From positions 1 to 64,000 of IMG/VR virus record IMGVR_UViG_3300001450_000028: a DNA stretch of 64,000 nt; one strand, given 5' to 3'. A program made the translations under genes and the position numbers. This DNA comes from a virus. Positions within the stretch are counted from its first letter, which is position 1; every line of letters begins with the position of its first letter. The notes beneath the pieces were generated by a model. That model had not been told where the DNA came from, did no database searches, and saw nothing but the letters and a program-made list of their open reading frames with translations. Below are positions 19,101-60,062 of this stretch, in pieces.

Positions 19101-20525
19101 AACACATTGGGTGGTCGAGGTTCCGGTGACATAGAATCATCTTCCAGGGCTATTGTTAATGGGTATGGATCTACTAAATTAGGTGAAAAATTTTTACATT
19201 TTGCACAAAGCGCATCAAAAACACCTTTTTCCTTAGTACCGCCTTCAGCAGAAACAATTGACTTACCTTCACCTTATATTATTTTACCTGATGATGAATT
19301 GGTAATGGGATGGCAATATCCAATGACAACAAGGATTGCAAATGCTGCGCCTGGAAAAAGCGATACATTCTTAAATACAATGTCACTTTATGGAAAGTCA
19401 AAACTGAAATTGATAGGCTCCTTAATAAAAAACAAAAAAGAATATCACGAAGGTCTAAATCAAAACATAAGCTCAAATGCTGTTCACGAAATTATAGGTG
19501 CAGAGACACCCATAGATCAGTTTAAGATTGAAAAGCAGTCTGAAAACATAGGCAGTTTTTATGATACCAGTGTAACTGTAACAAACAAATCACCCGTAGG
19601 CAGAATAGGATCAGAAACTGCTAGCAAGATATTAGTATTAGCCTCAGATGCAGGAAAAGCTTCAGGAAAAATTCGACTAAGTTCACCTTTTTTCATTTCC
19701 TCACCAGGCATACAGCAAGGGCTCGCAAATAACCAGATTATAGGGCTGACAGGTTCAGAAGGCGCAAAATATGCAGCCAAAGCAGGCTCTGCATTGAATG
19801 TCAGTTCTCCTAGTAACGGTGGAACATTTGAGTTATTTGGAAACGCAAATACTTATGCAGATGCGCTTTATACACTTATTTCACTGTCAGGACTTATTTT
19901 CTTAGATCCAGAAACCACAGATATTTTTACAACTTCAATAGAAACTGCTTACAACTCAGCCTCATCCTGGAGTGTTACACTAAACATTGCTCAAAAAGTA
20001 GGAGGCTTAGCCGGTAATCACCCTGTATCATTTGAATCCGACGGCGAGTCCAGACAACCTGCACGGCTTAGCGATTTTACTGGAGGTGCTGACGGTGAGC
20101 CTATAAGATCAAATTCTTTTTCAAGAAATGTCCAGCTAGAAGATGAAATAAGAATTTACACAGACAGCACAGGCTCTGCAGGCGCTTTTGACATACCTGG
20201 AGGCGTATCTAAGTTTGGAATAATGCAAACAACAAAAGGTATTACACCAAAATACTACTTTAATTCAAAAAACTTTGGTCATTTTTCTGATTTTATGGAT
20301 CAAGGAAAAGACTCAAAGTTTTCTCAAGCTATCGGAAGTAGAGTTTCAGCTTTTAAAGGCTCAGCACTTCAATCACCTGTTGAGATTATATTTGTCAGCG
20401 GCACTAATGAAAATACAATAGGCATTAAAAAGTTTGCCAAGAAGACTCCACAGTTTTCAGAAAACAAATCAAGAACTTCTGCTTTGACAGGATCTTTTAT
20501 GCTGCACACCGGCAGCTTTAGTTAA
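16110..20525 (+). CDS. Giant tail protein with N-terminal LamG domain
   Basis: A 1471-residue protein, the longest in the window. Residues about 35-275 form a clear LamG/concanavalin-like domain: ENLYAWYRFEDD, then AFSLSIWFNLDE, TNRWYHVVVTFSG, QLYVDGARVPY and a final ISEVALWTTLLDQSDIKTLY. Around residues 390-520 is a second beta-sandwich region (LKIQASTNGSDWVDIKTI) like those in sugar-binding or discoidin-type modules. The remainder is long, repetitive beta sequence. It is a probable fibre, spike or baseplate-periphery protein that contacts the cell surface. No endosialidase, lyase or chaperone motif is visible. Confidence 0.65.
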   Translation: MPRKIKQISTYDLSKPLKANEDTQNASAYNKQENLYAWYRFEDDISSSGNVEDSQLRSNFKLVPASSRPTFSLDSPSSIATVSGFSKRSSVFNTDVVRVQDKTLFPLRTGTAGAEAAFSLSIWFNLDEIGSRSQYLVSKYGIVDAKKAYALEITTAGEIAFTIYNGAAFRQVRTNDSIGTNRWYHVVVTFSGTVATQQIQLYVDGARVPYSKTTESIGGGAFTVIAETDSLFAIGNDESDPNSGNNVDTRGKISEVALWTTLLDQSDIKTLYNFKDAILYRTASGFVNLPPRVLLRQRDNATGSYPTVMRMGDKGRTGAYNRTFEDNYTINFGKKIKDVFEIKNRVGGVLGFSRDIDSSKWTHSKGMEIRQELVTGDTGATIRKTALVFSGGGLAGKRRIQTKNKIKNPRIKIDLTIGPYQEDRTVLKFGLGLSDGTATDDLKIQASTNGSDWVDIKTIQNNISTLLQSAFTRGFRSADLVKRRSIQVDLYPTDFPFGNNAFYLRIIQESVSSNDVVVWAMSSIEIDYHDEENISYPLMVDVDSFVGKKIVSSSVTAPHLNPTLKGPGRSISGISDVHLSFTPGEKLLPFIDNSHFFDDTSIFFNQGTSPDVIPGFSSPVSNKTIIEVDLSPSEQTTFGLDTRATHESTGNGSNRGPRLETDATKKQQLMVYWNKDLRRWEKIAQGVSGNVVAKQDEGFTPLRNMIHSGALGFSGIGMCSTGSDVTLANQLPVNQDALLSYARPTSTFGFPFEGKYEATASQFIKARDIGITKPFLLEKCSISFDSKFEFASNQFDSGSRAYSMAAANYSSGAPSSRTLADNQKVYIPTFFMLRQSKETLDVEYEYEIEDKGVRSSQKRIVSIPDSAVHLSTAPGPDDIVSVEKSRELITYGQMTLFVSGVANTAGSGDGRGSINAQVDIDTIINNGLGRDTIVDILSVTGQTNFNIGSSGQLAAITSSFNINFPCRLSPKINNTCPTILVISNSGGTDTVGALILGNTLGGRGSGDIESSSRAIVNGYGSTKLGEKFLHFAQSASKTPFSLVPPSAETIDLPSPYIILPDDELVMGWQYPMTTRIANAAPGKSDTFLNTMSLYGKSKLKLIGSLIKNKKEYHEGLNQNISSNAVHEIIGAETPIDQFKIEKQSENIGSFYDTSVTVTNKSPVGRIGSETASKILVLASDAGKASGKIRLSSPFFISSPGIQQGLANNQIIGLTGSEGAKYAAKAGSALNVSSPSNGGTFELFGNANTYADALYTLISLSGLIFLDPETTDIFTTSIETAYNSASSWSVTLNIAQKVGGLAGNHPVSFESDGESRQPARLSDFTGGADGEPIRSNSFSRNVQLEDEIRIYTDSTGSAGAFDIPGGVSKFGIMQTTKGITPKYYFNSKNFGHFSDFMDQGKDSKFSQAIGSRVSAFKGSALQSPVEIIFVSGTNENTIGIKKFAKKTPQFSENKSRTSALTGSFMLHTGSFS

Positions 20526-37218: not shown

Positions 37219-38469
37219 ATGATTTCGCTTCAGCGTCTTTTTGAAGATGTAGACATTAGCAGTGTTCCAAAAAAATACAAGAAAAGAATGTCTAGAAAAT
37301 GTAAAATCTTCAAAGGTTTTGAAGAGACAATACCAGAATTGTCATATCCAAAAATAGACACAGATAGATTTGAAGAAGACTTGTCAGAAGTTAGAAGGTG
37401 TGTTAAAGATTCTTCACTTTCAGAAAAGTTTTTAAAACTAACTAATAGAGATTCTGAAGATGTATTTAAGAAGTTTTTAAAAGACGAAGACATAGACTGG
37501 TCTGAGTTAGATCCTATGCTTAAAGAGTTTGATGGCGTCATGCTTAGAATGAAATTTAAATATGACAGAAAACGACCGTTTGAATATTTTAAAGAAAGAG
37601 GCGAAGACATAAAGACGGAAGAAGCACATTCACCGTCCTTCCCATCAGGACACACTGCGTTTGCATACTTAATGTGCGACTATCTTTCTGACATGTTTCC
37701 AGGAAAATCAATGCAATTGCAAACTATTGCAGAAATGATAGCACAATCAAGAATAGAAAATGGAGTTCATTTCCCAACAGACATTGCTGCAGGAAGATTT
37801 CTAGGAGAACAAGCAGCAAAGTTTGTACTTGAAAAAGAAAGTATCAATGAAGGCTTTGCGTCAAGAGATCATCAAAAAACTTTTGTTAGATTTTTAAGAA
37901 AGAAAGCCCGAAAGGTAAGAAAAGGATTTAATAAAAATGAAGCATTGAAATTTTTTGTTAATGACATTGCCACTTTTATTAATGAGTGTACACACAAAGA
38001 GTTTAACATATGTTACGAAGCTAGTAAAAGTTTGGTTGAGGGTCATAGTTTAGATAGCTGCACAAAAGATGAAGAAATAAAAAGACTAATTGAAGGTATG
38101 ATTCATATTTTCTTTTCAAAACAAGATAAGTTTTCTGAAATTGTTAAATTAAATCAAGTACTAGAATTAAAATGCGAAATTAGAAAAGTTGACAAAGTTA
38201 CTCTATCTGGATTGTCTTACGCACCTGTTGAAAAAATACAAGAGTATGCTACAAAAGTTTGCAAGTTAAACAACAAACCTTTTTTAAAATTAGCGACAGT
38301 TAGTTGGATAGCTCCTTTTTCAAGAGGTAACAGAAAAATTACAAATCTTGTTTTTCTAAAAGAAACAAATTTTGATTTTGATATAACAAATCAAATTCTA
38401 ACTGATGATTTAGACTACATGTTAGAGAGTTTTTATGTGCAAGACAGAGCAAAAACTATTCTTTCATAG
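37219..38469 (+). CDS. PAP2-superfamily phosphatase with long C-terminal extension
   Basis: A 416-residue protein with the full PAP2 (phosphatidic acid phosphatase/haloperoxidase) signature: KX6RP (Lys112, Arg119, Pro120), PSGH (Ser143, Gly144, His145) and SRX5HX3D (Arg178, His184, Asp188). All catalytic residues are intact, so activity on a phosphomonoester or diphosphate is expected. There are no obvious membrane spans, unlike lipid phosphatases, which favours a soluble acid-phosphatase type. Residues about 210-416 are an extension I do not recognise. The N terminus MISLQRLFED has an L-F-E site, similar to gp21 protease sites. An AGGA site precedes the ATG. The substrate is unknown. Confidence 0.8.
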   Translation: MISLQRLFEDVDISSVPKKYKKRMSRKCKIFKGFEETIPELSYPKIDTDRFEEDLSEVRRCVKDSSLSEKFLKLTNRDSEDVFKKFLKDEDIDWSELDPMLKEFDGVMLRMKFKYDRKRPFEYFKERGEDIKTEEAHSPSFPSGHTAFAYLMCDYLSDMFPGKSMQLQTIAEMIAQSRIENGVHFPTDIAAGRFLGEQAAKFVLEKESINEGFASRDHQKTFVRFLRKKARKVRKGFNKNEALKFFVNDIATFINECTHKEFNICYEASKSLVEGHSLDSCTKDEEIKRLIEGMIHIFFSKQDKFSEIVKLNQVLELKCEIRKVDKVTLSGLSYAPVEKIQEYATKVCKLNNKPFLKLATVSWIAPFSRGNRKITNLVFLKETNFDFDITNQILTDDLDYMLESFYVQDRAKTILS

Positions 38470-48738: not shown

Positions 48739-49598
48739 ACATTAAACACAATAAAAAAAGAAATATTGGTGTTGTATACGAATTGCTAATTCAACACATT
48801 ACAAGTTGCATTGTTGAGGGCGACAATAAGTCAGCAAAAATTGGAACAAGACTAATTGAAAAGCATTTTTCAAAAGAAAAAGAACTTTACAAAGAATTTA
48901 GATTGTTTAATGCACTTGTAAATTCAACAGTTAGTGATACACATATAGTTGCATCAATACTTTCAGAAGCAAAAAGAGCAGCAAGAAAAATTGACTATAA
49001 AAAACTTGAAAAAGAAAAATCAAATCTATTAAGAGATATTAACTACAAAATTAATAAAAAAGATTTTTTCTACCAGACAGTTTCAAACTATAGGCAATTA
49101 GGTTCAATACAAATAGCACTAAATGAATGGCGTAAGGACTCGCCGGACCTTGGGCGACTTATTGAATTTGAGAAAAAAATTGGAGAAAATCTTCTACTAG
49201 AAAAAACTAATAAAGATATAGTAGAAGTTAAAAACAATCTAGACGCTTCAAAGTCAGACAAGTTAATTCTTAAGCTAATGACAGAGAAAATTAACAAAAA
49301 GTATTCAAATCTTTCATCATCTGAGCGTGAAATTATTAGCAATTATGTTTTTTACTCTTCAAAAGAAGGCGACTACTTAAAATCTTATCTATCAGAAAAG
49401 AGAAAAGACGCTTTAAACCTTTTAGAAAACTTTGAAGACAAAGAAACAAATCAAATTTTGGTAGAAAAAGTAGGTAAAGTAAGAGACACTATTCAAAACA
49501 TTAGTGAGCAAGAAGTTAATGACGAAACCGTTATTAAATTTTTAACTATTACAAAGCTAATTAACGAACTCACTAAACAGGAGAATAAAAATGGCTGA
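48735..49598 (+). CDS. Helical head-cluster protein, possible core component
   Basis: A 287-residue, lysine- and glutamate-rich, almost wholly helical protein (NIKHNKKRNIGVVYELLIQH at the start). It lies between portal and prohead protease with overlaps at both ends (ATGA before it, 8 bases after). T4 has small core proteins (gp67, gp68) at this place, but this one is much larger and not visibly related. A scaffold or core role is an inference from position. No enzyme motif is seen. Confidence 0.5.
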   Translation: MNIKHNKKRNIGVVYELLIQHITSCIVEGDNKSAKIGTRLIEKHFSKEKELYKEFRLFNALVNSTVSDTHIVASILSEAKRAARKIDYKKLEKEKSNLLRDINYKINKKDFFYQTVSNYRQLGSIQIALNEWRKDSPDLGRLIEFEKKIGENLLLEKTNKDIVEVKNNLDASKSDKLILKLMTEKINKKYSNLSSSEREIISNYVFYSSKEGDYLKSYLSEKRKDALNLLENFEDKETNQILVEKVGKVRDTIQNISEQEVNDETVIKFLTITKLINELTKQENKNG

Positions 49599-50214
49599 TT
49601 TAAAAGTACTTAGAGAGTGGCTTCCTATTACATGTGACAAAGAAGTCATTAAGGAAAATAAAGAAAAGTATGGAAAAGTAATGCTAAAAGGTATTATTCA
49701 AAGAGCAAATACTTTAAACCAGAATGGCCGTGTTTACCCAAAATCAATCCTTCAAAGAGAAATTGAAAACTATCAAAAGCTAATAAGAGAGAATAGAGCA
49801 CTAGGCGAATGCGATCACCCGGACTCTTCTGTTATTGAGTTAAAAAATGCGAGTCATGTAGTTAGAGAAGCATACATGCAAGGTGATGATGTCTACGGAA
49901 CAATCGAAGTGCTTAACACTCCTAGCGGTAAGATTATTCAAGAATTAATCGAATCAGGAATTACACTAGGTATTAGCTCAAGAGGCGTTGGTTCTACATC
50001 TTCACAAGGAAATACACAGGTAGTCCAGGATGACTTTCAACTAATATGTTTTGACATGGTTAGCGAGCCATCAACCCCTGGAGCTTTTATGGGACTTCAC
50101 GAAGGAAAAACAATCAAACCTAAAGAATTAAATAATTTCTTTAACAGGACAGACAGGATAGATAGAATTTTTAATGAAATTCTTACTTGGGGAAAAAATG
50201 AGCAAGATAAATAA
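49591..50214 (+). CDS. Prohead core protease (gp21-like)
   Basis: A 207-residue serine protease of the gp21/herpesvirus-assemblin type. The family core is clear: LNQNGRVYPKSIL, ALGECDHPDSS with catalytic His76, LGISSRGVGS with the catalytic Ser at 129 or 130, and the later DFQLICFDMVSEPS segment. It matures the head by cutting scaffold, capsid protein and internal proteins after (I/L)-x-E sites. The next gene starts within its end and carries such sites, as does the capsid protein at Glu61. A GGAG site precedes the ATG. Confidence 0.92.
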   Translation: MADLKVLREWLPITCDKEVIKENKEKYGKVMLKGIIQRANTLNQNGRVYPKSILQREIENYQKLIRENRALGECDHPDSSVIELKNASHVVREAYMQGDDVYGTIEVLNTPSGKIIQELIESGITLGISSRGVGSTSSQGNTQVVQDDFQLICFDMVSEPSTPGAFMGLHEGKTIKPKELNNFFNRTDRIDRIFNEILTWGKNEQDK

Positions 50215-50734
50215 AAAATTACTTAAATCTATTGTAAAAGAATGTCTAGTTGAAATATTAGCAGAAGGTCTTGTGCAAGGCCAGGCAACTCCTGTTGAAA
50301 AGAAAAGATCTTTAAAGGAAACTGTTGAAAACACAGGAAGGGCACTTGGCAAAAAAAGAATAGATCCTAGATTAGGTAGAATGAATGAGGTACAACAAGC
50401 AAATCTTCAAAAGCGAGGAAGTTATTTAGACCAAGTAAGCTTTGGACAAAATAATTCAAAGCAAGCTCAAGAAGAACCATCTCAAAATAGAGCTAGCAAG
50501 CTTATATCTAGTGTAACTAAAGATCCAATTATGAGCGAAATTTTTGCAGACACCGCTGCTTCGACACTAAAAAGACAGGGTGCAGCTGAAAGAGGCGGTT
50601 CCCGCGGAGGAGGTGTTTCTATGCCTGCTGATGAAGCGGCAAGAATCGTAGAGGCATCTGACCCTATGGAGCTTTTTGGAAGTTCTGCAGGAAAATGGGC
50701 TGAAATGGCATTTGCTCCAAAATTAAATAGATAA
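50198..50734 (+). CDS. Candidate internal head protein with targeting-type N terminus
   Basis: A 178-residue protein starting at ATG 50198 after GGGGA, inside the protease gene. Its first 25 residues (MSKINKKLLKSIVKECLVEI, then LAEGL) form an amphipathic helix with V-K-E, L-V-E and L-A-E sites suitable for gp21-type cleavage. The rest is Gln/Asn/Ser-rich, with a Gly-rich linker (about 130-145) and a helical end (DEAARIVEASDPMELF). It lies between the protease and the scaffold, so a core or internal role is plausible. No family is recognised. Confidence 0.6.
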   Translation: MSKINKKLLKSIVKECLVEILAEGLVQGQATPVEKKRSLKETVENTGRALGKKRIDPRLGRMNEVQQANLQKRGSYLDQVSFGQNNSKQAQEEPSQNRASKLISSVTKDPIMSEIFADTAASTLKRQGAAERGGSRGGGVSMPADEAARIVEASDPMELFGSSAGKWAEMAFAPKLNR

Positions 50735-50741
50735 AAAATTA

Positions 50742-50764
50742 ATTGCAATATATTTAGATTGCAA
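50742..50764 (+). promoter_or_regulatory. Candidate late promoter box flanked by direct repeats
   Basis: TATATTTAG (50749-50757) lies between two exact copies of ATTGCAA (50742-50748 and 50758-50764). The 11-mer TATATTTAGAT also stands before the gene at 30825. TTGCAAACA, beginning in the second repeat, also occurs at 38997 before the MoxR gene. The ATG is at 50783. A late promoter with an operator-like flank is possible. Confidence 0.4.
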
Positions 50765-50782
50765 ACATTTTCTGGAGCCGCT

Positions 50783-51031
50783 ATGTCTAGACCCACAAAG
50801 CTTACAAAGTCAGTATTGAAAAGAATTATCAATGAAGAACGTCAAAAAATAATTGACCAAAAGAAAAAGATTAAAAACATAAAGCACTCAAAAGACATTA
50901 AGCGCCTTTATGAACTCAGAAAAGAATTAAAGACATTGTTACAGTTGAAAAAAGAACAAAAATTTCTTTTTGAAAGAATTAAAAAAATTCAAAAAAGAAC
51001 AAAAGTAATCTCAAAAAAGATTAAGGAGTAA
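50783..51031 (+). CDS. Small basic coiled-coil protein with targeting-type N terminus
   Basis: An 82-residue, very basic helical protein starting at ATG 50783, 5 bases after TCTGGAG; an upstream TTG-type start would ignore this site. Residues 6-19 (KLTKSVLKRIINEE) match the recurrent Lys/Leu motif ending in I-N-E. The remainder is one continuous Lys/Glu/Leu helix (RLYELRKELKTLLQLKKEQK). It resembles small head-core proteins of T4-type phages in size and charge, but sequence kinship is not established. Confidence 0.6.
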   Translation: MSRPTKLTKSVLKRIINEERQKIIDQKKKIKNIKHSKDIKRLYELRKELKTLLQLKKEQKFLFERIKKIQKRTKVISKKIKE

Positions 51032-51033
51032 CA

Positions 51034-51603
51034 ATGGCTGAAAAAGGCGATATATTAGTAGAACCAAAAATCGTAACTGCTGGAGGGCTAGGTAGAAGGT
51101 TTTCTGACAATTACACATCTGCTTACCCGTCATCACCAATATACGCAGGAGATATGACAGATGATGCTATTAGGCAAGTTTGGGCAGATGGAGTACAGTC
51201 AGAAGATCCAACTGATGCATTTGATGCGTACGGTTCGCCAGTTGCAAGCGGCGATGGAAACAGGTTTGATAGCTTTAATGTCGATTTTACTGGCACAACA
51301 GAAGATCCTGTACCTGATGTTGGTGGCAACACAGAAACTTTCGATGGAAAGGCTTTTGGTGACGGCCAAGGTGCCCCTACAACACCGTATATTCCGCCTT
51401 TAACATCCCCTGGCCCTGGGTCGCTATCTGCAACAGACCAGCCTGCCTTTACAGGAGCAACTCCAGACGCAGCACTTCAGTCTGAATTTGGATCTGGGTT
51501 GGGTGGTCTAGCTTCACCTCACGAAACGTCACCTGAGATTGCAACACAAGACACAGTTACTGCTCTAATTTCTGGCAGATCATACGCAACCTCAGCAGGT
51601 TAA
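51034..51603 (+). CDS. Low-complexity acidic protein in head cluster
   Basis: A 189-residue acidic protein rich in Gly, Pro, Ser, Thr, Asp and Ala, with no cysteine and few predicted helices, probably largely disordered (PYIPPLTSPGPGSLSATDQP). It begins 2 bases after the previous gene behind AAGGAG. It lies among core and scaffold genes. A role as a virion or assembly protein is inferred only from position. I do not recognise it. Confidence 0.45.
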   Translation: MAEKGDILVEPKIVTAGGLGRRFSDNYTSAYPSSPIYAGDMTDDAIRQVWADGVQSEDPTDAFDAYGSPVASGDGNRFDSFNVDFTGTTEDPVPDVGGNTETFDGKAFGDGQGAPTTPYIPPLTSPGPGSLSATDQPAFTGATPDAALQSEFGSGLGGLASPHETSPEIATQDTVTALISGRSYATSAG

Positions 51604-51613
51604 ACGGATATTT

Positions 51614-52258
51614 ATGAGTTATGAATCTACCATAGGCATTGCAAAGGCTCACGATGGAAATGTCTCTCGTGGTTATGGTAGAATTTCAACAGGTCATCCT
51701 GCACAAGGTGCAACTCAAGGCCAATCTAGACCCATGTATCAGTATCCTGAACTAGGTGAAAACGAAGAACTTGATCCTGACATAGACATACTTGATGATC
51801 TAGATACAGACATAATTGATGCAATTCATGCTGTAACTGACACTGAACTATATACAAACCCTAATAGATCTGGTCGCGCTGACAGAGGGTCTTTGACAGG
51901 TAGAAACATGGCAATGGAAGGTATGTCAGAAGAGTTTGAACATACAACTACTGCTGTTAGGGGTTTGTCGCCTAGAATAACTTATCGTCAAAAAGGTCCA
52001 ACAGGTACAGTACCTAGAAACAATAAAGGACCAGCATTTGGTGCTCAATCAACAGCACAGTATATTCGAAGCGCTCCTGGTAGAAAAGGAGGCACTCATT
52101 TTGGTACTGCTAGAGCTCCACTTCCTAGACATGACGAATATGATGAAAACATATTTTCTCTAATGGATTTAAAAGATCCAATGGAGCGATCTTTTTTAAA
52201 TCAGCAAAAAAGAGTCAACAAAATTAAAAACATGGTCAATTTAATTGAAAAAGAATAA
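51614..52258 (+). CDS. Head-cluster protein, unrecognised
   Basis: A 214-residue protein. The first half is Gly/Ser/Gln-rich with an acidic stretch (LDPDIDILDDLDTDIIDAIH). The second half is basic and Gly-rich, ending in a helix (LNQQKRVNKIKNMVNLIEKE). No catalytic or membrane features are visible. It sits between the disordered protein and the scaffold and has only a weak AACGGA site. An assembly function is possible but unproven. Confidence 0.45.
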   Translation: MSYESTIGIAKAHDGNVSRGYGRISTGHPAQGATQGQSRPMYQYPELGENEELDPDIDILDDLDTDIIDAIHAVTDTELYTNPNRSGRADRGSLTGRNMAMEGMSEEFEHTTTAVRGLSPRITYRQKGPTGTVPRNNKGPAFGAQSTAQYIRSAPGRKGGTHFGTARAPLPRHDEYDENIFSLMDLKDPMERSFLNQQKRVNKIKNMVNLIEKE

Positions 52259-52285
52259 TTAAAAAGAACATTAGCAAAAAACAGC

Positions 52286-52293
52286 TATATTTA
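52286..52293 (+). promoter_or_regulatory. Candidate late promoter box before scaffold
   Basis: TATATTTA stands 28 bases before the scaffold ATG, in a 55-base gap that also has an AGAGG ribosome site. The distance matches the box before 30825. A late promoter here would make scaffold and capsid transcripts, which end at the terminator at 55770. Confidence 0.4.
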
Positions 52294-52313
52294 TTAAGTT
52301 TAAGAGGTAATCA

Positions 52314-53765
52314 ATGTCAAACAAAATTTTTGAAGAAGCGATTGCGGATGCAAAAAAACTAAGAGAAGTTGCAGAAGAAAATGCTAAAAAAGCAATTCTT
52401 GAAGCAGTTACTCCAAAAATTAGAGAATTTATAGAGTCTGAGCTTATTGAAGGCAAAGAGGAAGAAATCGAAGAAGATGCAGAAGAACTAGATGAAGGTT
52501 CTGATGTTGAAGAAGAGATTACCCTTGATGAGGTTTCACTTAAAAAGCTATCTACTCTACTCGGTGTTGATATTACAAGCCAACTTGCAGATAAAAATAC
52601 AAAATCTGCAATATCAGAATCAACAAGAGACGCTTTCGACATGTTAGACGAAAGACAGAAGAAAGACCTTAAGAAATTGGCAAATAAAATTAACAGTAGA
52701 AAAAGAACTTTGTCTTCTGCTACCATAAATAATAAAGAATCGAATTTAAAGGAGAATTCACCAATGAAAGATAAGTACTATGAAGTAGATCTCAAGGCTC
52801 TAAGAGAAGCTGTTGAGGCAGAACTTTCAGAAACCCTCTATGAAGATGAAGGTGCTGATGAAGGTTCTGATCATGATGTTGAAGAGGCGAGTCTTGAAGA
52901 AATGCTTCAGGAGCTAAGACTTGTCTTGGATTTAGGCGAAGATATTGAAGAAGACCAAATCCCTGAAGAACTTCGCGGAATGCTAGAAGACGACGACGAA
53001 GATGAAGAAGAAGTCGAACTAGCTGACGATGATGCAGAAGAAGCCGAAGAAGCCGAAGAAGAAGGCGAAGGTGAAGAAGATGCAGAAGCAGAAGTTGATT
53101 TTCAAGCACTCGCTGAAATGATGTATGAAGAAGAAGATGCAGATGAGATGGTGGAAGTCGATGAAGCCGTTCTCGCTGAAGAAATTCTTCGAATTAGAAA
53201 AATGGTCCGCGAAGGGAAAATGGATCACCAGTTTGGTGGCAAAGGCGAAGGTAAAGCCGGCGTCGCAGGATCCTTTGGCGGAAAAGGCACCGGAAAAGCC
53301 GGTGTCAAAAAAGCTTTTGGTGGTGGATCAGAAGGACAAGATGTCTTTACCAACCCACCTACCTTAAACAAACTAGCGGAGGCATTCCGCACAGAGCGCC
53401 GCAAAAATCGTGCGCTTGATGAGAAACTGAAGAAATACAGAAGTGCTGTTGATACTCTTCGTGAACAGTTGGAAGATCTCAATCTTTTTAATGCCAAGTT
53501 GCTTTACGTTAATAAGCTTCTTCAGAATAAGAACCTTAACGAGTCTGAAAAGAAATCCGTTATCAAGGCGCTTGACGAAGCTAACAGTCTTAGAGAGGCT
53601 AAGTCATTGTACAAGTCTCTAACCGAGACATTTACTCGTGGTGGAAAAAAGACTCTTGCTGAGTCAAGAAGCCGTGGGTCTTCATCCAGACCAACAACCT
53701 CTTCAGCACCTAAGGGCGGAGCTCCCGAACTTGACCGCTGGCAGAGACTTGCAGGTCTAAAATAA
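52314..53765 (+). CDS. Prohead scaffold/core protein (gp22-like), with internal start
   Basis: A 483-residue, highly acidic, helical protein just before the capsid gene, the place of the T4 gp22 scaffold. Residues 1-150 are helices with Glu/Lys. A second segment from Met151 has its own strong ribosome site. Residues about 165-285 are extremely acidic (runs of Glu/Asp). Residues 300-345 contain Gly-rich repeats (GGKGEGKAGV, GGKGTGKAGV), and a coiled coil (about 360-445) follows, then a short basic end. Many (I/L)-x-E sites suit destruction by the prohead protease. The assignment rests on position and composition, since scaffolds are poorly conserved. Confidence 0.7.
   Translation: MSNKIFEEAIADAKKLREVAEENAKKAILEAVTPKIREFIESELIEGKEEEIEEDAEELDEGSDVEEEITLDEVSLKKLSTLLGVDITSQLADKNTKSAISESTRDAFDMLDERQKKDLKKLANKINSRKRTLSSATINNKESNLKENSPMKDKYYEVDLKALREAVEAELSETLYEDEGADEGSDHDVEEASLEEMLQELRLVLDLGEDIEEDQIPEELRGMLEDDDEDEEEVELADDDAEEAEEAEEEGEGEEDAEAEVDFQALAEMMYEEEDADEMVEVDEAVLAEEILRIRKMVREGKMDHQFGGKGEGKAGVAGSFGGKGTGKAGVKKAFGGGSEGQDVFTNPPTLNKLAEAFRTERRKNRALDEKLKKYRSAVDTLREQLEDLNLFNAKLLYVNKLLQNKNLNESEKKSVIKALDEANSLREAKSLYKSLTETFTRGGKKTLAESRSRGSSSRPTTSSAPKGGAPELDRWQRLAGLK
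52748..52766 (+). promoter_or_regulatory. Internal in-frame ribosome binding site and start
   Basis: AAAGGAG (52748-52754), a 9-base spacer and ATG at 52764 lie in frame inside the scaffold gene. The product would be residues 151-483, beginning MKDKYYEVDLKALREAVEAE, an opening like an independent core protein. This site is stronger than the AGAGG site of the full-length start, so two proteins from one gene are plausible, as with lambda C and Nu3. Confidence 0.55.
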
Positions 53766-53815
53766 ACTGTTCACAAATATAAACGACATAATTTAAATTA
53801 TAAAGGAGTTAAAAC

Positions 53816-55747
53816 ATGTCACGTTCATTCACTTTAAATCAGCTTACTGAAGGCATTCGCGACCGCGATATTGGCGCCGAAAGTAACAGACTGATGGAGA
53901 AGTGGACCCGCACAGGTCTGCTTCGTGGTCTCGCCGACACAGGTCGCGAAACCATGTCACGCCTTCTCGAAAACCAGGCAGCCCAGGTTCTTCGCGAAGC
54001 AAACGTTCTTGGTTCAGGCGGAAGCGCTGGTGCCATCGACGGTTTCTCAAACATTGCATTCCCGATTGTTCGTAGAGTTTTCGGCGGTTTAGTTGCAAAC
54101 GAACTCGTTTCAATTCAGCCAATGAGCCTTCCTTCTGGTCTGCTCTTCTACCTCGACTACACCTACGGCTCAGACGTTGGTGGTGACGATACGCTCGCTG
54201 CTTCACCTGATCTTGCTGGTACAGATGCTACCTTCAACAAAGGCGACTCACTCTACAACAACCCAGCAGGTAAGTCAATTCGTACAGGTTCTGATGCGGT
54301 CGGTGGTCAGTACGACCTCGTCGGTTCATCATACTCGCGCGTTCATAAGGGTGTTGTATTAAAAGCTGCAGAAGACGTCTTCAACGGCGCTTTTGGTGGT
54401 GCTTCAGCTCAGTCATGGACTGCAGGTTCTACATCTGTTAACGTTACAACAAGCGGTTCAGACGGAAAACTACTTCAGTTTGACCCTCAGGTTGTTCAGC
54501 ACATTACAGACGGCACATTCGGGTATCAGTTCTTAGTCATGTCAGCTTCAAAGCTTATTGATTCAACAAGTACATACAGAGTAGATTCTACTGCTATTAA
54601 GTCAATTGCTCTATTCTCTGATGCAGGCATTACAGGATATACAGTTCCTGGTTCTGATATGCAGGGTGGAAGTGGCATTCTTAACGTTCGTCGCTTAAAC
54701 CAGCTCGGTACAATGTCTGGTGCACCTAGCAATGTTTCATTCACACCAAACCCTCTTGTCGGTGTTTCAGCCACTGATTTAAGTTCAGGTGTGCTTTTTG
54801 TCATGCAGGGCGCTGCTGCTGACCTTGAAAACGTTTCAACCGCTCTTAATCTCACAGCTTCTTTTGCTGTAGGTGATCAGGTTGAAGCTGCTGGTGGCAC
54901 CGGTGGAACACTTACCATTCCGACCTTCGAGTCAGATTTTGGTTCTTCACCACAGCCTGTCATCCCTGAAATTGACATCAAGATTGAGTCAATTGCTGTT
55001 ACAGCTACCACACGTAAGCTCCGTGCTCGTTGGTCTCCGGAACTCGCACAGGATCTTAACGCTTACCACAGCATGGACGCCGAGGTTGAGCTTACTCAGA
55101 TCCTTTCAGAGCAGATTGCTCTTGAAATCGACCGCGAGATCCTTAACGACCTGCTCGTCGAAGCTCGTGGTGCTAACTTCTACTGGAGCAGAAGCCCCGG
55201 TAAGTTCGTTAACAAGCGCTCTGGTGCTGCTGTTCAGCTTGCTTCAACACTCGCAACCGGTCCCCAGTTCACTGGTACCGTCCGCGAATGGTACGAGACT
55301 CTTGTCGAGACCATTATTGATGTTGCTAACGAGATCCACAGAAAGACCCTTCGCGGTTCAGCTAACTTCCTCGTGTGTTCACCTGAAGTTGCTACAATCT
55401 TCGAAGCTTCTGTCCTCTACAAGCCTTCAATCAAGATTGACGGTCAAGGCCAGGTCGGTGCAGAGTTCACACTCGGTGCTGCTTCAATCGGTAGCTTAAG
55501 CAACCGATTCACAGTCTACAAGGACCCATACTTCCCACGCAACAAGATTCTTGTTGGTTACAAGGGAGGTTCATACCTTGAGACCGGTTACGTTTACGCT
55601 CCGTACGTTCCGCTAATTGTCACTCCGACAATCTTCGCGCCTGAAGACTTCACACCCCGCAAGGGCGTGATGACTCGTTACGGCAAGAAGATGGTTCGCG
55701 CTGACTTCTACGGTACAATTACCTGCCTCGACATGGACATTATCTGA
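53816..55747 (+). CDS. Major capsid protein (gp23-like)
   Basis: A 643-residue T4-type capsid protein. The N-terminal 61 residues are a propeptide: RLLENQAAQVLRE then ANVLG gives an L-R-E cleavage point after Glu61, close to Glu65 of T4 gp23. The HK97-like body follows (IAFPIVRRVFGGLVANELVS, IQPMSLPSGLLF), with the gp23-type C-terminal stretch (FLVCSPEVATIFEAS ... KILVGYKGGSYLETGYVY). Codon use is sharply different from its neighbours, favouring CTC, GTC, CGC, TTC and AAC, as expected for the most abundant product. A strong AAAGGAG site precedes the ATG and a terminator follows 23 bases after the stop. Confidence 0.95.
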   Translation: MSRSFTLNQLTEGIRDRDIGAESNRLMEKWTRTGLLRGLADTGRETMSRLLENQAAQVLREANVLGSGGSAGAIDGFSNIAFPIVRRVFGGLVANELVSIQPMSLPSGLLFYLDYTYGSDVGGDDTLAASPDLAGTDATFNKGDSLYNNPAGKSIRTGSDAVGGQYDLVGSSYSRVHKGVVLKAAEDVFNGAFGGASAQSWTAGSTSVNVTTSGSDGKLLQFDPQVVQHITDGTFGYQFLVMSASKLIDSTSTYRVDSTAIKSIALFSDAGITGYTVPGSDMQGGSGILNVRRLNQLGTMSGAPSNVSFTPNPLVGVSATDLSSGVLFVMQGAAADLENVSTALNLTASFAVGDQVEAAGGTGGTLTIPTFESDFGSSPQPVIPEIDIKIESIAVTATTRKLRARWSPELAQDLNAYHSMDAEVELTQILSEQIALEIDREILNDLLVEARGANFYWSRSPGKFVNKRSGAAVQLASTLATGPQFTGTVREWYETLVETIIDVANEIHRKTLRGSANFLVCSPEVATIFEASVLYKPSIKIDGQGQVGAEFTLGAASIGSLSNRFTVYKDPYFPRNKILVGYKGGSYLETGYVYAPYVPLIVTPTIFAPEDFTPRKGVMTRYGKKMVRADFYGTITCLDMDII

Positions 55748-55769
55748 TCTTTAATTAGATAATGTCTTT

Positions 55770-55796
55770 AAAGGCACCCTTCGGGGTGCCTTTTTT
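55770..55796 (+). terminator. Strong Rho-independent terminator after capsid gene
   Basis: A perfect hairpin AAAGGCACCC / GGGTGCCTTT closes a TTCG tetraloop (55780-55783) and is followed by a T run. The 10-base stem is GC-rich in its inner seven pairs. It ends the capsid transcript. Confidence 0.92.
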
Positions 55797-55828
55797 GTTT
55801 TTCACTTATAATTTTTAAAATAGTTTTC

Positions 55829-55834
55829 TATAAT
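55829..55834 (+). promoter_or_regulatory. Possible -10 box before the 55854 gene
   Basis: TATAAT lies 20 bases before the ATG at 55854 and after the capsid terminator, where a new promoter is needed. No good -35 box is visible at 16-18 bases, and there is no TGn extension, so it may depend on another factor. Confidence 0.3.
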
Positions 55835-55853
55835 AAGAAAATAAGGAGCTTAA

Positions 55854-56114
55854 ATGCTAATTGACGAAAATGATATGGAAAAAGAACCCTCAGGCCAAGG
55901 TGAGATTGTCGGTATTGCAATGATACCACCCGGAGAAATGGATCCGGATGAAGGATTAAGACTTCAACTGCTTATGCTTTCAAAAGAAATTCTTTTAGGA
56001 AAAGCAGCAATGCGTTGGGAAACACACAAGCAGTACGCAGACGTTGAAGTTGGCGAAATTATAAACGAAGCTCAAAGAATGTTTGAGTTTGTCAAGGGCC
56101 CTAATGAAAGTTAA
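55854..56114 (+). CDS. Small hypothetical protein upstream of dUTPase
   Basis: An 86-residue acidic protein. The first 30 residues are extended (EPSGQGEIVGIAMIPPGEMD). The rest is helical (GLRLQLLMLSKEILLGKAAM ... EIINEAQRMFEFVKG). An AAGGAG site precedes the ATG. It overlaps the dUTPase start by 11 bases, so the two are translated together. No family is recognised. Confidence 0.55.
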   Translation: MLIDENDMEKEPSGQGEIVGIAMIPPGEMDPDEGLRLQLLMLSKEILLGKAAMRWETHKQYADVEVGEIINEAQRMFEFVKGPNES

Positions 56115-56532
56115 TTTTAAAAAGCTGCACCCGAATGCCAAAACACCTCACTACTCTTTAGAAGGTGATGCATGTTTAGACTTATATGCAGCGTGGCAAA
56201 AAATAGATGATTTAGGTAACCGAGTATACGGTACAGGAATTGCAATGGAAATACCTAGAGGTCATGTAGGATTATTGTTTCCAAGAAGCTCTATATCAAA
56301 AACAAATTTAAGCTTAAGAAACAGCGTCGGTGTGATTGATAGCAATTATCGAGGCGAGATAATGTTAAAGTTTCTTGATTTAGAAGAGATGGGTGACCTA
56401 CCAGGGTATCTCCCGGGCAATAAAATCGGCCAGATCATGATAATTGAAAGACCTGAAATTCAACTTGGAGAAGTAGCAAAGCTTTCAGATTCTGTGCGCG
56501 GTGAAGGCGGCTTTGGGTCTACAGGAAGTTAA
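56104..56532 (+). CDS. dut: dUTP diphosphatase (dUTPase)
   Basis: A 142-residue trimeric dUTPase with all five motifs: I, DACLDLYA (22-29); II, PRSS (60-63); III, GVIDSNYRGE (76-85), with the catalytic Asp79 and the sugar-discriminating Tyr82; IV, GNKIGQIMI; V, RGEGGFGSTGS. It hydrolyses dUTP to dUMP and diphosphate, keeping uracil out of phage DNA and feeding dTMP synthesis. The start chosen is ATG 56104, after AAGGG, which overlaps the previous gene; an upstream TTG would only add residues inside that gene. Its 3' end overlaps the convergent reverse-strand gene by 14 bases. Confidence 0.95.
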   Translation: MKVNFKKLHPNAKTPHYSLEGDACLDLYAAWQKIDDLGNRVYGTGIAMEIPRGHVGLLFPRSSISKTNLSLRNSVGVIDSNYRGEIMLKFLDLEEMGDLPGYLPGNKIGQIMIIERPEIQLGEVAKLSDSVRGEGGFGSTGS

Positions 56533-56848
56533 GCCAGGCATACCTTGACCGATTATCTAAATACGTCATGTCTTTTTGCATTGCGTATGCTTCTTTTTCA
56601 AAAGGAATATCGTAATATGCCTGATCTTTATCTCTGTTCTTGACAAAGCTCTTGAGCCAATAAAAGCCGTAAAGTATATAAAAACCTACAACCAATAACT
56701 CCACCTGTTGACGCAGGTGGATTTTTTCATGGTTGATTGTGACTTCGTTTCCTTCATCTCTAATAAACACAAAAGGCCATAGTGCTATTGCATAAACATC
56801 TATGACAATTGATGCCCACTTAGGAACTTTGCTGTTTTTTATAATCAT
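56519..56848 (-). CDS. HEXXH membrane protein, probable zinc peptidase (only reverse-strand gene)
   Basis: A 109-residue protein read from the reverse strand. The ATG has a strong CTGGAG site just upstream, and the frame holds a coherent protein. Residues 13-29 and about 49-65 are hydrophobic spans; between them lies NHEKIHLRQQVE, a HEXXH motif at 40-44, and further on FEKEAYAMQ (Glu84, Glu86) could give a third zinc ligand, as in gluzincins. I recall similar small proteins in Bacteroidetes genomes. It may be a membrane-bound peptidase; substrate unknown. It is convergent with dUTPase and divergent from the next gene, an isolated position that fits an acquired accessory gene. Confidence 0.75.
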   Translation of the reverse strand: MIIKNSKVPKWASIVIDVYAIALWPFVFIRDEGNEVTINHEKIHLRQQVELLVVGFYILYGFYWLKSFVKNRDKDQAYYDIPFEKEAYAMQKDMTYLDNRSRYAWLNFL

Positions 56849-56875
56849 TTTAACTCCAGAAAATTAGTAATCAAC

Positions 56876-56881
56876 ATTATA
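56876..56881 (-). promoter_or_regulatory. Possible -10 box for the reverse-strand gene
   Basis: TATAAT on the reverse strand lies 28 bases before the ATG at 56848, within the 69-base divergent gap. No clear -35 box is present. The box supports independent transcription of the reverse-strand gene. Confidence 0.35.
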
Positions 56882-56917
56882 CTTATACACGAGTCATTCA
56901 TTTTATTGGAGGAACAG

Positions 56918-57133
56918 ATGGCAAGAAAAAGTACAAGTACAGCATCCGGTGCTGCAAAAGCACCAGAGTGCTGCGCAAAATGTGAAAAAGATATTGCAGA
57001 ACTTAGAAAAGAAATTGCAGCTTTAAAGGCTGCAATTGCAAAGAGATCTACAGACGGCGCTGACCCACGTGTTAATAAAATACTAGAAGCACTTGTAAAA
57101 TACAGCTCAAAATTTAAAAGTTTGCTTTCTTAG
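56918..57133 (+). CDS. Small Cys-containing coiled-coil protein
   Basis: A 71-residue protein starting at ATG 56918, six bases after GGAGG; a TTG at 56906 would contain this ribosome site and is rejected. The Ser/Thr/Ala-rich start is followed by ECCAKC (three cysteines, possibly metal-binding), then a helical repeat (IAELRKEIAALKAAIAKR) likely to form a coiled-coil oligomer, and a helical end. Its position between the dUTPase block and a probable capsid-surface gene gives no clear role. Confidence 0.65.
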   Translation: MARKSTSTASGAAKAPECCAKCEKDIAELRKEIAALKAAIAKRSTDGADPRVNKILEALVKYSSKFKSLLS

Positions 57134-57142
57134 GTCATATAT

Positions 57143-57191
57143 AGATCAGGCCCAACACAAGCATAATTAACTGATCTCGCCAGTGTGTTGG
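57143..57191 (+). promoter_or_regulatory. Interlocked inverted repeats: possible RNA pseudoknot leader
   Basis: Two perfect inverted repeats are interleaved. AGATCAG (57143-57149) pairs with CTGATCT (57171-57177), and CCAACACA (57152-57159) pairs with TGTGTTGG (57184-57191). The order A-B-A'-B' gives an H-type pseudoknot with loops of 2, 11 and 6 bases, or two mutually exclusive hairpins. It ends 15 bases before the AAGGAGG site of the gene at 57218, so it may control its translation or mRNA stability. Confidence 0.55.
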
Positions 57192-57217
57192 AATCTTGCG
57201 AAAATAAGGAGGAAATT

Positions 57218-57775
57218 ATGCCTAAAGTAAAGTTTACAAATTCAAAAGGTTTACATCAAGAGTCGGGTACAGAGTCATTTGACCTTCAAGGCGACGGTGT
57301 TTTATTTGGTCAAAGAAATAAAATATCTGGCTCTCTTAACTTAGGAGCAACACTATCACTTAATGATTCTGGAAAAACATTCATGATCGGATCAGGTTCA
57401 GCAGGTGCATTTACAATTGAATACCCTGTTACACATACTGGATGGAACGCAAAGTTTGTAGTAGGTCAAGATGCGGTTGTTTCTAAGGGTGGCGCAAGAA
57501 CAGGTCTGGGTGCAGCAGTAACACTTTCAGGATCAGACTCAGGTGGCGGTCACGTTGTAACAGGATCTTTTATTATTACAGGAACAGATGCAGCACCAGT
57601 CGGAATTGTACAAGGAAACGGGTCAAATGTAGGTAAGATGATATTTGCTGCAGGCGGATTGGCTGCAGGTGCAAGAGCTGGTGATTACGTAGAAATTGAA
57701 GTTTTAAGAGGTACAAAAGATACTTCTGATGGATTTATGGCTGTTGTTCACGGGCATGGATACTGTAAAAATTAA
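57218..57775 (+). CDS. Beta-rich virion protein, possible head decoration
   Basis: A 185-residue protein starting at ATG 57218, five bases after AAGGAGG; an upstream in-frame TTG would run through the leader structure and is rejected. It is Gly/Ser/Thr-rich and almost all beta (LNLGATLSLNDSGKTFMIGS; GGHVVTGSFIITGTDAAPVG) with one Cys near the end. The very strong ribosome site and its own terminator suggest abundant expression. A head decoration or outer-capsid protein is likely from position near the capsid gene. The family is not recognised. Confidence 0.6.
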   Translation: MPKVKFTNSKGLHQESGTESFDLQGDGVLFGQRNKISGSLNLGATLSLNDSGKTFMIGSGSAGAFTIEYPVTHTGWNAKFVVGQDAVVSKGGARTGLGAAVTLSGSDSGGGHVVTGSFIITGTDAAPVGIVQGNGSNVGKMIFAAGGLAAGARAGDYVEIEVLRGTKDTSDGFMAVVHGHGYCKN

Positions 57776-57797
57776 ATCGTAACAATTTTTTATAATT

Positions 57798-57825
57798 AAG
57801 GTGCTCCTTGCGGGTACCTTTTTTT
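57798..57825 (+). terminator. Rho-independent terminator
   Basis: AAGGTGCTC and GGGTACCTT form a nine-pair stem with two G-T wobbles, closing a five-base loop and followed by a run of seven T. It lies 22 bases after the stop of the preceding gene and isolates it as a single-gene transcript. Confidence 0.8.
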
Positions 57826-57890
57826 ATTTTTTAAAAAGACTTGCAGGACATTTAATTTATAATTAATATAAGGTACATAGCCTTCTGTAT

Positions 57891-57937
57891 AACTTTAAAT
57901 CGTAGCCACCTATCTATATTAGAGTGGTTTTAAAGTT
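57891..57937 (+). promoter_or_regulatory. Leader hairpin before the 57953 gene
   Basis: AACTTTAAA (57891-57899) pairs perfectly with TTTAAAGTT (57929-57937), and inside it GCCAC (57905-57909) pairs with GTGGT (57924-57928) around a 14-base loop. The five bases between the two stem arms on the left are unpaired. AGGAG follows five bases after the hairpin and GTG at 57953 six bases later, so the structure may tune initiation. It lies in the 177-base non-coding gap after the terminator. Confidence 0.5.
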
Positions 57938-57952
57938 CACCAGGAGTCATCT

Positions 57953-58483
57953 GTGAAGGTCCCAGCAGCCCTTTTAAAGGAGCTCATAAGCAGTATTATT
58001 GATGAAGAGATAAGAAAAGTCAAAGGGGGATACAAGGTTTACCCTAAGAAACCTCAAAAAGGTAGAAAGACTCGAAAAGCACTTTCAAAGAAAGCGATGT
58101 CTTATAAAAAGGCACTTAGTCAGCTTCGTGCTGTTGAAAGAAGCAAAGCTATGAACGAGGCTGATCCTGAAAAAGGGACAGGCAGAAAACCCAAAGGAAG
58201 TGGCCGAAGACTCTATACTGATGAAAACCCTAAGGACACTGTGCCGGTCAAGTTTAGAACAGTCGAAGATATAAGAAAAACTTTTTCGTCTTCAGCATTT
58301 AAATCAAAAGATCATAAGCGCCAATCACAGATAATTAATCTATTGCATCAAAGAGTGCGCGCTGCATATGAAAACGCAAAAGATCCAAAAACTAAAGCTA
58401 GACTTAAAAGAGCGTATGACTACGCAAAGAAAAGAAAAGAAGCTAGCAAAAAAAAGACTGAGCGATTAAAAAATAAAAAATGA
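57953..58483 (+). CDS. Very basic protein with targeting-type N terminus
   Basis: A 176-residue protein starting at GTG 57953 after AGGAG. Residues 1-19 (MKVPAALLKELISSIIDEE) are an amphipathic helix with an I-D-E site at Glu18. The rest is strongly basic (GYKVYPKKPQKGRKTRKALS; YDYAKKRKEASKKKTERLKN). Such a protein could bind phage DNA inside the head, like T4 internal proteins, after removal of the N-terminal helix. It is the first of three adjacent genes with this type of opening. The next gene overlaps by ATGA. Confidence 0.6.
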   Translation: MKVPAALLKELISSIIDEEIRKVKGGYKVYPKKPQKGRKTRKALSKKAMSYKKALSQLRAVERSKAMNEADPEKGTGRKPKGSGRRLYTDENPKDTVPVKFRTVEDIRKTFSSSAFKSKDHKRQSQIINLLHQRVRAAYENAKDPKTKARLKRAYDYAKKRKEASKKKTERLKNKK

Positions 58484-59379
58484 AAATTACAAAGATAAAA
58501 TTAAAATTACTAATAGAGGCAAATTTAGCAATTTGGGGTTTTGATCGTGTATTAGGTAGATTTTTTAAAGATACTTTTAGAAAACTAGGAGGTCAGAAAA
58601 AAGAAAATTGGCAAAACACGAGATTTATCTACTGGTTACACGCCAAACCTATTGAATCTATTCTTAAAGGAAATATTCCGGGTGAGATAGGAGTGCGTGC
58701 ATATCACAAAGATCAAATCATCAATAATCTCGGCTGGGACGCACCTTATGGTCTAGAAGTAGAAGGAAGAGTTACTTTAGCATCGATCGTTGATATTTTT
58801 TCAGGGACTTCTATGCCTCATTTTAAAGGTCCGGGTTCTTGGCCGAGTGAGAAAGAAATTGAACCTCACTTTGGAATTGACAATGTTGATTTTTTCAAAA
58901 CAAAACCAGGTCTAAAAAAATTTAGAAAATATCCTTCTTATGGAGAATATGCCTACAACCCGGAGGGTGGCCAGTTAGACATGGGTTTTATTGAAGACTT
59001 GTGGGAGGATACACCTGAAAATACTACTGAAAGTGAGCAATACGATTTCTTGCAAAGTAGAATCGCTAATAAAAGCAAAGAGGAGGTTGAGGAACTATTA
59101 TTCGACGCGAGCATAATATTAGACGACAAGCGTATCATGCCTTCAGGCGAAAGCGTCGTCGAATGGTCAAGTAAAAATAGACCTGGCAATGAGTTTTTAA
59201 TTGCAAATGCTGTTCCCGTTACTATCTGGATAAAAGAAGGTGATAGTTTTCCATCTAGTCTGCAAGATGCGGTTATAAATAGAAATTTAGAAGTAAAAAC
59301 TATTTCTTCTGGGGAGTCAAAAATAGTCGAAAGACTAGAATTAAAAAAAGTAATTCGTGAGATTTTGAAATCTTTATAA
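58480..59379 (+). CDS. Protein with targeting-type N terminus, function unknown
   Basis: A 299-residue protein opening MKITKIKLKLLIE, with an L-I-E site at Glu13. The body has RFIYWLHAKPIESILKGNIP near residue 47, which loosely resembles the His-containing entry of ADP-ribosyltransferase-like folds, but no complete catalytic triad is apparent. The C terminus repeats the motif style (LELKKVIREILKSL). T4 packages ADP-ribosyltransferases in its head, so the possibility is worth testing, yet the call is not supported by clear residues. It overlaps the preceding gene and has no good Shine-Dalgarno site. Confidence 0.55.
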   Translation: MKITKIKLKLLIEANLAIWGFDRVLGRFFKDTFRKLGGQKKENWQNTRFIYWLHAKPIESILKGNIPGEIGVRAYHKDQIINNLGWDAPYGLEVEGRVTLASIVDIFSGTSMPHFKGPGSWPSEKEIEPHFGIDNVDFFKTKPGLKKFRKYPSYGEYAYNPEGGQLDMGFIEDLWEDTPENTTESEQYDFLQSRIANKSKEEVEELLFDASIILDDKRIMPSGESVVEWSSKNRPGNEFLIANAVPVTIWIKEGDSFPSSLQDAVINRNLEVKTISSGESKIVERLELKKVIREILKSL

Positions 59380-59402
59380 CAAAAATCAAAGGCAAAGAAA
59401 AA

Positions 59403-60062
59403 ATGAAAATTACTAGAAAAAGACTAAGTCTAATTATTGAGTCCTTGCTTTCTGAAAGCAAGCATGGAGAAAAATATATTTGCCCCAAGTGCGGTCATGA
59501 GCACAAAGAAGAACCTGGTGAGAAATGTGCCAATTGTGGTCACAAATACGATGATCCATGGCAAGGAAAAGAGTGGGTAAAGCCTAAGGCAAAAGTTAAT
59601 GAAAAAAAAGACATGACTTGTCCAGCAGCGACCACAGACATAAGTGTAAACACAGCAAACAGAGACAGAGCCAGAAAGCTTGACTGGATTATGTACGGTC
59701 CTTTAAATGTAGAAGAACCAGGAAATTATTGGGAAAGAATTGCTGATAAATGGAACACTCTAGTTGAAGCAGCAAAAAAATCAAATTGTGGCAACTGTGT
59801 TGCTTTTGACAGATCGCCTAAGATGGTTGACGAGTGCATACCGGCGATTACAACAGAACCTGTTGCTGATGAATTTGGAGTCTTAGGTTACTGTTGGATG
59901 CACCATTTTAAATGTCATAGCGCAAGAACGTGCAATACTTGGGCCGCTGGTGGTCCAATTAAAACTGACCAGTCATCAAACGAGTGGATGAAAAGAAACC
60001 GCGAAGGTGCTACAAACAAAAGCCCGCTAGATCAAAAAATGTACAAAGACGACACTGCTTAA
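59403..60062 (+). CDS. Cysteine-rich metal-binding protein with targeting-type N terminus
   Basis: A 219-residue protein. Residues 1-13 (MKITRKRLSLIIE) nearly copy the opening of the preceding protein, with an I-I-E site. A zinc ribbon follows (YICPKCGHE ... CANCGHKY, about residues 24-49). The second half has another cysteine set: NCGNCVAFD, CIPAI, GYCWMHHFKCHSARTCNTW. The C-x-x-C, single Cys and G-x-C order resembles high-potential iron-sulfur proteins, so an Fe-S or zinc site is possible. If the N-terminal motif targets the head, this protein would be delivered to the host cell. The target is unknown. Confidence 0.65.
   Translation: MKITRKRLSLIIESLLSESKHGEKYICPKCGHEHKEEPGEKCANCGHKYDDPWQGKEWVKPKAKVNEKKDMTCPAATTDISVNTANRDRARKLDWIMYGPLNVEEPGNYWERIADKWNTLVEAAKKSNCGNCVAFDRSPKMVDECIPAITTEPVADEFGVLGYCWMHHFKCHSARTCNTWAAGGPIKTDQSSNEWMKRNREGATNKSPLDQKMYKDDTA

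Follow-up and report, generated by a model that had tools for sequence, protein, structure and literature searches.

Unrelated proteins of an uncultured T4-like phage share an N-terminal leader that is likely to act as a capsid-targeting sequence

In bacteriophage T4, foreign proteins can enter the phage head with the aid of a short leader, and to our knowledge only a handful of natural cargoes of this capsid-targeting sequence (CTS) are known. The stretch of DNA analysed here (hereafter the window) comprises 64,000 nucleotides, positions 1 to 64,000 of the IMG/VR virus record IMGVR_UViG_3300001450_000028, and forms part of a 72,326-base linear record from an uncultured T4-like phage, in which 59 genes were called. 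Several otherwise unrelated proteins of this phage open with the same kind of short N-terminal tag, for which the best explanation is a capsid-targeting leader following the T4 logic, widened to many cargoes and diversified among phage groups. Genes are named below by their start positions.

In T4, cleavage by the protease gp21 follows L/I-x-E, and the leaders have a length of 10-19 residues (PMC9026906). The gp21-cut CTS of the T4 internal proteins IPI, IPII and IPIII resembles the window's leader in that a short N-terminal sequence with an L/I-x-E ending is attached to unrelated basic or variable proteins, an S77 protease is encoded in the same genome, and the cargo genes lie apart from the head cluster (PMC9026906). 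The Glu is residue 14 or 18 in most representatives, within the approximately 10-19 residues of T4, and residue 23 in the longer leader of gene 50198. The window's leader differs, however, in being a Lys/Leu helix, whereas that of T4 reads MKTYQEFIAE, in following a clade consensus on up to 30 genes per genome, as opposed to 3-4 in T4, and in occurring in two length classes, of 14 and 18 residues. The window tags can be aligned with the T4 CTS no further than the hydrophobic-x-E ending, and the likeness is slight. The tags of one relative, G045 (MKHIKLFEQFINEA), resemble T4 MKTYQEFIAEA and show a weak match (E = 6) to the Ip4 leaders of T4-like phages. The bridge from the window's tag to the T4 CTS would be formed by functional logic, the G045 leaders and the data for phage S-CREM2 considered below.

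Hydrophobic-x-E leaders are likewise present on non-structural proteins of other virions, namely the S-adenosylmethionine (SAM) hydrolase, kinase and cytidylyltransferase of S-CREM2 and the nicotinamide mononucleotide adenylyltransferase (NMNAT) of S-SCSM1, but these belong to another leader family and the source passages mention no leader (PMC10665884, PMC9602691). The head propeptides of phiKZ and SPN3US (cut at S/A-x-E) are likewise removed by a gp21-like protease and cargo is ejected, although the motif and phage group are different and the likeness is one of description. Polyvalent phage proteins (PMC5512222) are likewise predicted head-packaged effectors, and a tagged protein of G044 matches ART-PolyVal; polyvalent proteins are, however, large and multidomain, without a described common leader (PMC5512222).

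We consider it likely that the leader is a CTS which the head core recognises and the S77 protease probably cleaves. A basic amphipathic helix of 13-23 residues, M-K-[IL]-[TS]-[RK]-x-x-L-[RK]-x-[LI]-I-x-E, would bind the prohead core or scaffold during prohead assembly, and any protein bearing it would thereby be taken inside the prohead. The S77 protease (gene 49591) would then probably cut after the Glu of the hydrophobic-x-E ending, and the mature protein would accompany the DNA inside the head until its ejection into the next host. The tag would be modular, with unrelated cargo acquiring the leader, and each phage group would have its own leader version, matched to its own head core.

The tag is recurrent and of fixed length. 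According to the initial annotation, the N-termini of genes 50198, 50783, 57953, 58480 and 59403 share the motif, and all five are present as written. A regular expression derived from that motif (Lys/Arg plus Leu-x-x-hydrophobic pair-(x)-Glu) matches precisely these five among the 59 genes of the record, with a chance expectation of 0.67 (shuffled N-termini) or 0.41 (internal windows). As the expression was derived from the motif, the window is no independent test, and the relatives serve as such. A motif-blind all-against-all comparison of N-termini, from which homologous pairs were removed, nevertheless placed precisely the same five genes in one cluster. The tags and tagged proteins of the window are as follows.

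50198 to 50266, plus strand: tag of gene 50198, MSKINKKLLKSIVKECLVEILAE followed by G, predicted cut after E23; 58-member cluster in relatives
50198 to 50734, plus strand: conserved tagged protein adjoining the S77 protease, from its position in relatives
50783 to 50836, plus strand: tag of gene 50783, MSRPTKLTKSVLKRIINE followed by E; a 33-member and smaller clusters in relatives (LTPxxLKRIIxEE)
50783 to 51031, plus strand: tagged small coiled protein, rich in lysine, encoded in the head cassette
57953 to 58006, plus strand: tag of gene 57953, MKVPAALLKELISSIIDE followed by E; homologs in G001, L004 and G002 with the changed leader MELTEAQLRFLIRE
57953 to 58483, plus strand: basic tagged protein, probable cargo
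58480 to 58518, plus strand: tag of gene 58480, MKITKIKLKLLIE followed by A; fits the clade consensus MKITRxxLRxLIxE followed by A, S or T
58480 to 59379, plus strand: tagged protein, probable cargo
59403 to 59456, plus strand: tag of gene 59403, MKITRKRLSLIIESLLSE followed by S, type B, predicted cut after E18 from the type-B consensus
59403 to 60062, plus strand: tag, zinc ribbon and Cys-rich domain, probable cargo; leaders differ by phage group
36671 to 36709, plus strand: weaker tag of gene 36671, MKRVDLRRMIQQE; full tags kept by homologs

Nine long relatives, each with 72-260 called genes, were analysed in segments of 20 kb under one rule throughout. The ten records together contain 127 tagged genes (122 in the nine relatives; 5 to 30 per record), compared with an expectation of 15.4 when the N-termini are shuffled and of 10.3 when internal windows are used. 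Over 90 otherwise unrelated proteins, whose members were picked by the motif, the consensus is MKITRxxLRxLIxE. Among the type-A leaders, 55 of 79 have the Glu at residue 14, and 13 of the 14 type-B leaders (LxxLIENYLxE) have it at residue 18. At the position that follows the Glu (P1'), A, S, T and G together make up 53% against a background of 29% (p = 1e-5). Viral contigs yield 33 stretches matching the exact 12-residue tag pattern, as opposed to zero in bacterial and archaeal genomes (257 Gb). Searches with tblastn using short consensus-tag queries against isolate phages gave nothing useful for the window's tag, and no description of the leaders was found in the searchable literature, the tag strings tried being absent from its text.

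The leaders could have no targeting role and have been spread by recombination or by codon or translation preferences at gene starts. K-rich starts are common, and certain G003 tags share 84% DNA identity. However, in two genomes with several tags, 32% (G003) and 47% (G004) of the same-residue pairs have differing codons, which argues that selection acts on the peptide, while the position of the Glu is fixed, the tag is nearly absent from proteins of known function and the leader has been swapped while the cargo was kept. Such an origin is thus highly improbable, and chance and codon effects as the source of the tag are ruled out by the shuffles and the synonymous codon use.

The tag is restricted to proteins outside known families. 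With the leader removed, the mature parts of the 249 proteins tagged across all loci make up 117 unrelated clusters, in agreement with the earlier observation that the proteins are unrelated beyond the motif. Matches to Pfam comprise 4 families in 90 tagged proteins as opposed to 57 in 85 length-matched untagged proteins of the same records, and those to PHROG 10 and 97 families, respectively. The untagged matches include ribonucleotide reductase, RecA, helicase, thymidine kinase and tail sheath. Replication, metabolic and tail proteins are thus avoided by the tag, which is not equally common on clearly non-virion proteins. The few recognisable tagged proteins include a deoxyribonucleotidase, a transglycosylase, a LysM protein, an acetyltransferase-like protein and the ART-PolyVal ADP-ribosyltransferase of G044 (PF18760; e-value: 1.3e-7), which parallels the packaged Alt.

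These cargoes bear on an alternative in which the tag is a head-core assembly motif and the tagged proteins are structural components of the prohead core, in which they are bound and cleaved, with nothing delivered to the host. Genes 50198 and 50783 lie within the conserved protease-scaffold cassette in relatives, and many core proteins of T4 are degraded (PMC9026906). For the tagged proteins as a whole this alternative is unlikely, given the 10-30 tagged genes per larger genome with their 117 unrelated cargo clusters, the location of many tagged genes far from the head cluster and their specificity to single phages, and the resemblance of some tagged proteins to host-acting enzymes (ADP-ribosyltransferase, acetyltransferase-like protein and nucleotidase). 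It may well be correct, though, for 50198 and 50783, which as conserved prohead-cassette proteins are more likely core parts than cargo. The modular cargo system proposed in the initial annotation is supported as regards a modular leader tied to the prohead cassette with CTS-like behaviour; 50198 and 50783 are probably not cargo.

The 50198 protein probably belongs to the prohead core and may read or anchor the tag. It is encoded immediately after the protease in G000, G001, G003, G044 and G050, and one gene further in G008. The start at 50198 is favoured over a longer open reading frame starting at 50174 by both the gene caller and the homologs. In 57 sequences of the family E19 and E23 are invariant and G24 is conserved in more than 90%, giving an I-L-x-E/G site, in which the slash marks the predicted cut; while the tag recognised earlier is retained, the cut formerly placed at V-K-E15 is thus probably at E23/G24. 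Likewise, the tag of 59403 stands, but its cut is probably at E18/S19, as in the type-B consensus, instead of I-I-E13. Genes 57953, 58480, 59403 and 36671 encode probable cargo. The scan for homologs of 58480 gave nothing beyond one 100% identical copy elsewhere. Weaker versions of the motif had also been reported for 36671 and 37219; the former is a member, as its homologs keep the tag (MKRESLRKIIQQE, MSKLSKSMLKRMILEE and MKISRSQLRKMIREV), whereas the latter is ruled out by a different conserved family start in relatives, M-x-SL-x-x-LF-x-E-T/D/S. Gene 37219 (37219-38469) encodes a PAP2-type phosphatase (PF01569; e-value: 1e-14), the conserved start of which is perhaps a shorter leader of another kind.

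The tag also matches the gene adjoining the prohead protease: in 7/8 genomes, this gene has the same leader flavour as the cargo encoded with it. In G045, for instance, the cargo start is MKHIKLFEQFINEA and the protease neighbour starts with MKIIKTFEEFTSSLQEDA, while G046 shows no clear cargo cluster and no tagged protease neighbour. The head cassette of the window is T4-like and on the plus strand, with terminase (45136), portal (46762) and protease (49591) genes followed by 50198, 50783, 51034 and 51614, and then by one gene for a scaffold-like product (52314) and another for a capsid protein of the gp23 type (53816). Its protease, scaffold and capsid components are as follows.

49591 to 50214, plus strand: S77 prohead protease, gp21-like (PF03420; e-value: 2.2e-27; phrog_207, the PHROG head maturation protease; e-value: 2.2e-51)
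52314 to 53765, plus strand: scaffold-like acidic protein in the gp22 position, from position and composition only
53816 to 55747, plus strand: major capsid protein, gp23-like (PF07068; e-value: 3.5e-77), predicted cut V-L-R-E61/A62

The matches to PF03420 and the PHROG family bear out the earlier assignment of 49591 as a gp21-like protease, and an S77 protease is encoded in 16/16 long relatives. In the capsid protein, L-[RK]-E/[AS] is invariant across 15 relatives and aligns with the T4 gp23 cut site FLTE/A, which gives the likely specificity of the S77 protease. The hydrophobic-x-E ending of the leader matches this capsid protein site.

Amphipathic N-terminal helices are known to target bacterial microcompartments and membranes, and the tag could accordingly address the tail, the host membrane, a replication complex or another intracellular compartment, as might also fit the spread of tagged genes throughout the genome and their lack of late promoter enrichment (below). 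Such a destination is improbable, however, as the leader co-varies with the gene adjoining the prohead protease, its ending fits the capsid protein site, and both the T4 control and the S-CREM2 virion data point to the head.

On one cargo domain, that of 59403, the leader has been swapped. Residues ~65-200 of this protein form a very widespread phage domain, labelled 'high potential iron-sulfur protein' in GenBank relatives and confirmed in at least 598 stretches of 599 candidates among the matches listed. Over 53 sequences it has 45 invariant columns, including seven Cys. The first 20 residues before the domain vary by phage group, with MKITRKRLSLIIESLLSE in the window and MKKSELKNIIRE, MKTIKLFEEFKEA, MKKLLTEWRKYINEE and MGNFDLRKFIIEGKLFEA in other phages, and in G044, G045 and G050 the leader that precedes the domain is also present on further genes, unrelated to it, within that genome. 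An S77 protease is encoded in 14 of the 15 records of at least 86 kb which carry the domain. In a low-confidence AlphaFold model of 59403 (mean pLDDT 57), all that can be seen is a helix at residues 5-20. In some phages the domain is fused into proteins of 600-1000 residues (L332, L353 and L361).

When applied to T4, the blind N-terminus procedure placed ipI, ipII, ipIII and gp61.1 in one cluster. The gp61.1 protein (L429; T4 18966-19130) starts with MKTFKEFIKED and is a candidate further internal protein of T4. The published virion proteome of S-CREM2 comprises 46 of 190 called genes detected by mass spectrometry (PMC10665884). All three genes of the top N-terminal cluster, formed blind to these detections, are virion-detected, as opposed to 46/190 overall. 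In addition, a profile built from T4 and G045 leaders only ranks a virion-detected S-CREM2 protein first. The proteins detected in S-CREM2 virions include the SAM hydrolase, a Cas9-like nuclease, the kinase and neighbouring products (L431; gp6 and gp12-gp15), among which gp6, gp13 and gp14 start with [FL]-x-x-F-L-x-E leaders and gp12 has FASFMAE/A near residues 19-26. The NMNAT of S-SCSM1, also a virion protein, starts with MKSFLQFLKE/A (PMC9602691). With the relatives, the controls, T4 as positive control and one published virion proteome behind it, a modular CTS-like leader is strongly supported.

Several points weigh against the leader acting as a CTS. For this phage we infer core binding, cleavage, packaging and delivery. 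The bias at P1' is only moderate. No S77 gene is found on 24 of the 27 contigs bearing the tag; the seven of these which were read are all fragments of the same phage group. T4-type late promoters (TATAAATA) are not enriched upstream of 73 tagged genes. The S-CREM2 leader is of the FxxFLxE kind, unlike that of the window, and the T4 and G045 profile has 4 detected proteins among its top 7 (p = 0.06). The strict pattern M[KNQ]x[FLY]xxF[LIF]xE (of the MK-x-F-x-x-FL-x-E kind) has five matches in 211 S-CREM2 genes, all five of them detected, and was drawn after the detected sequences had been seen.

As the leader most likely works like the T4 CTS, it could alone pick out candidate injected proteins. 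The same logic would here apply to unrelated and mostly uncharacterised proteins of abundant aquatic phages, tens of them per genome, with group-specific codes. If so, a scan of N-termini would make many ORFans of uncultured T4-like phages candidate head-delivered effectors, name substrates of the prohead protease and supply new encapsulation tags. It also suggests a reading for virion proteomes with kinases, SAM hydrolases and NMNATs, for which possible contamination had been raised. Furthermore, we lean slightly towards a broader proposal, in which phage-specific address codes matched to the core load large, fast-changing effector sets of 10-30 different proteins per genome, the injected proteome can be predicted from the tag alone, and domains of cargo pass from phage to phage with an exchange of nothing but the leader.

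Additional observations were made in the relatives and in the window. G004 encodes a tagged protein of 575 residues (L182; 68324-70051) which contains VYHGS...GLYGMGLY and resembles ADP-ribosyltransferases without a Pfam match; the scan gave no other homologs of it. Two tandem tagged genes of the same genome (L180; 26415-31000), encoding 764 and 763 residues, look recently duplicated. A run of small genes in G044 (L388; 2644-6040), with a common 'KxGDLV' near the N-termini, probably encodes homologous small proteins. In the window, the sole minus-strand gene called in the record (56519-56848) encodes a HEKIH (HExxH) motif and a hydrophobic stretch, and is a possible candidate for a membrane metallopeptidase.

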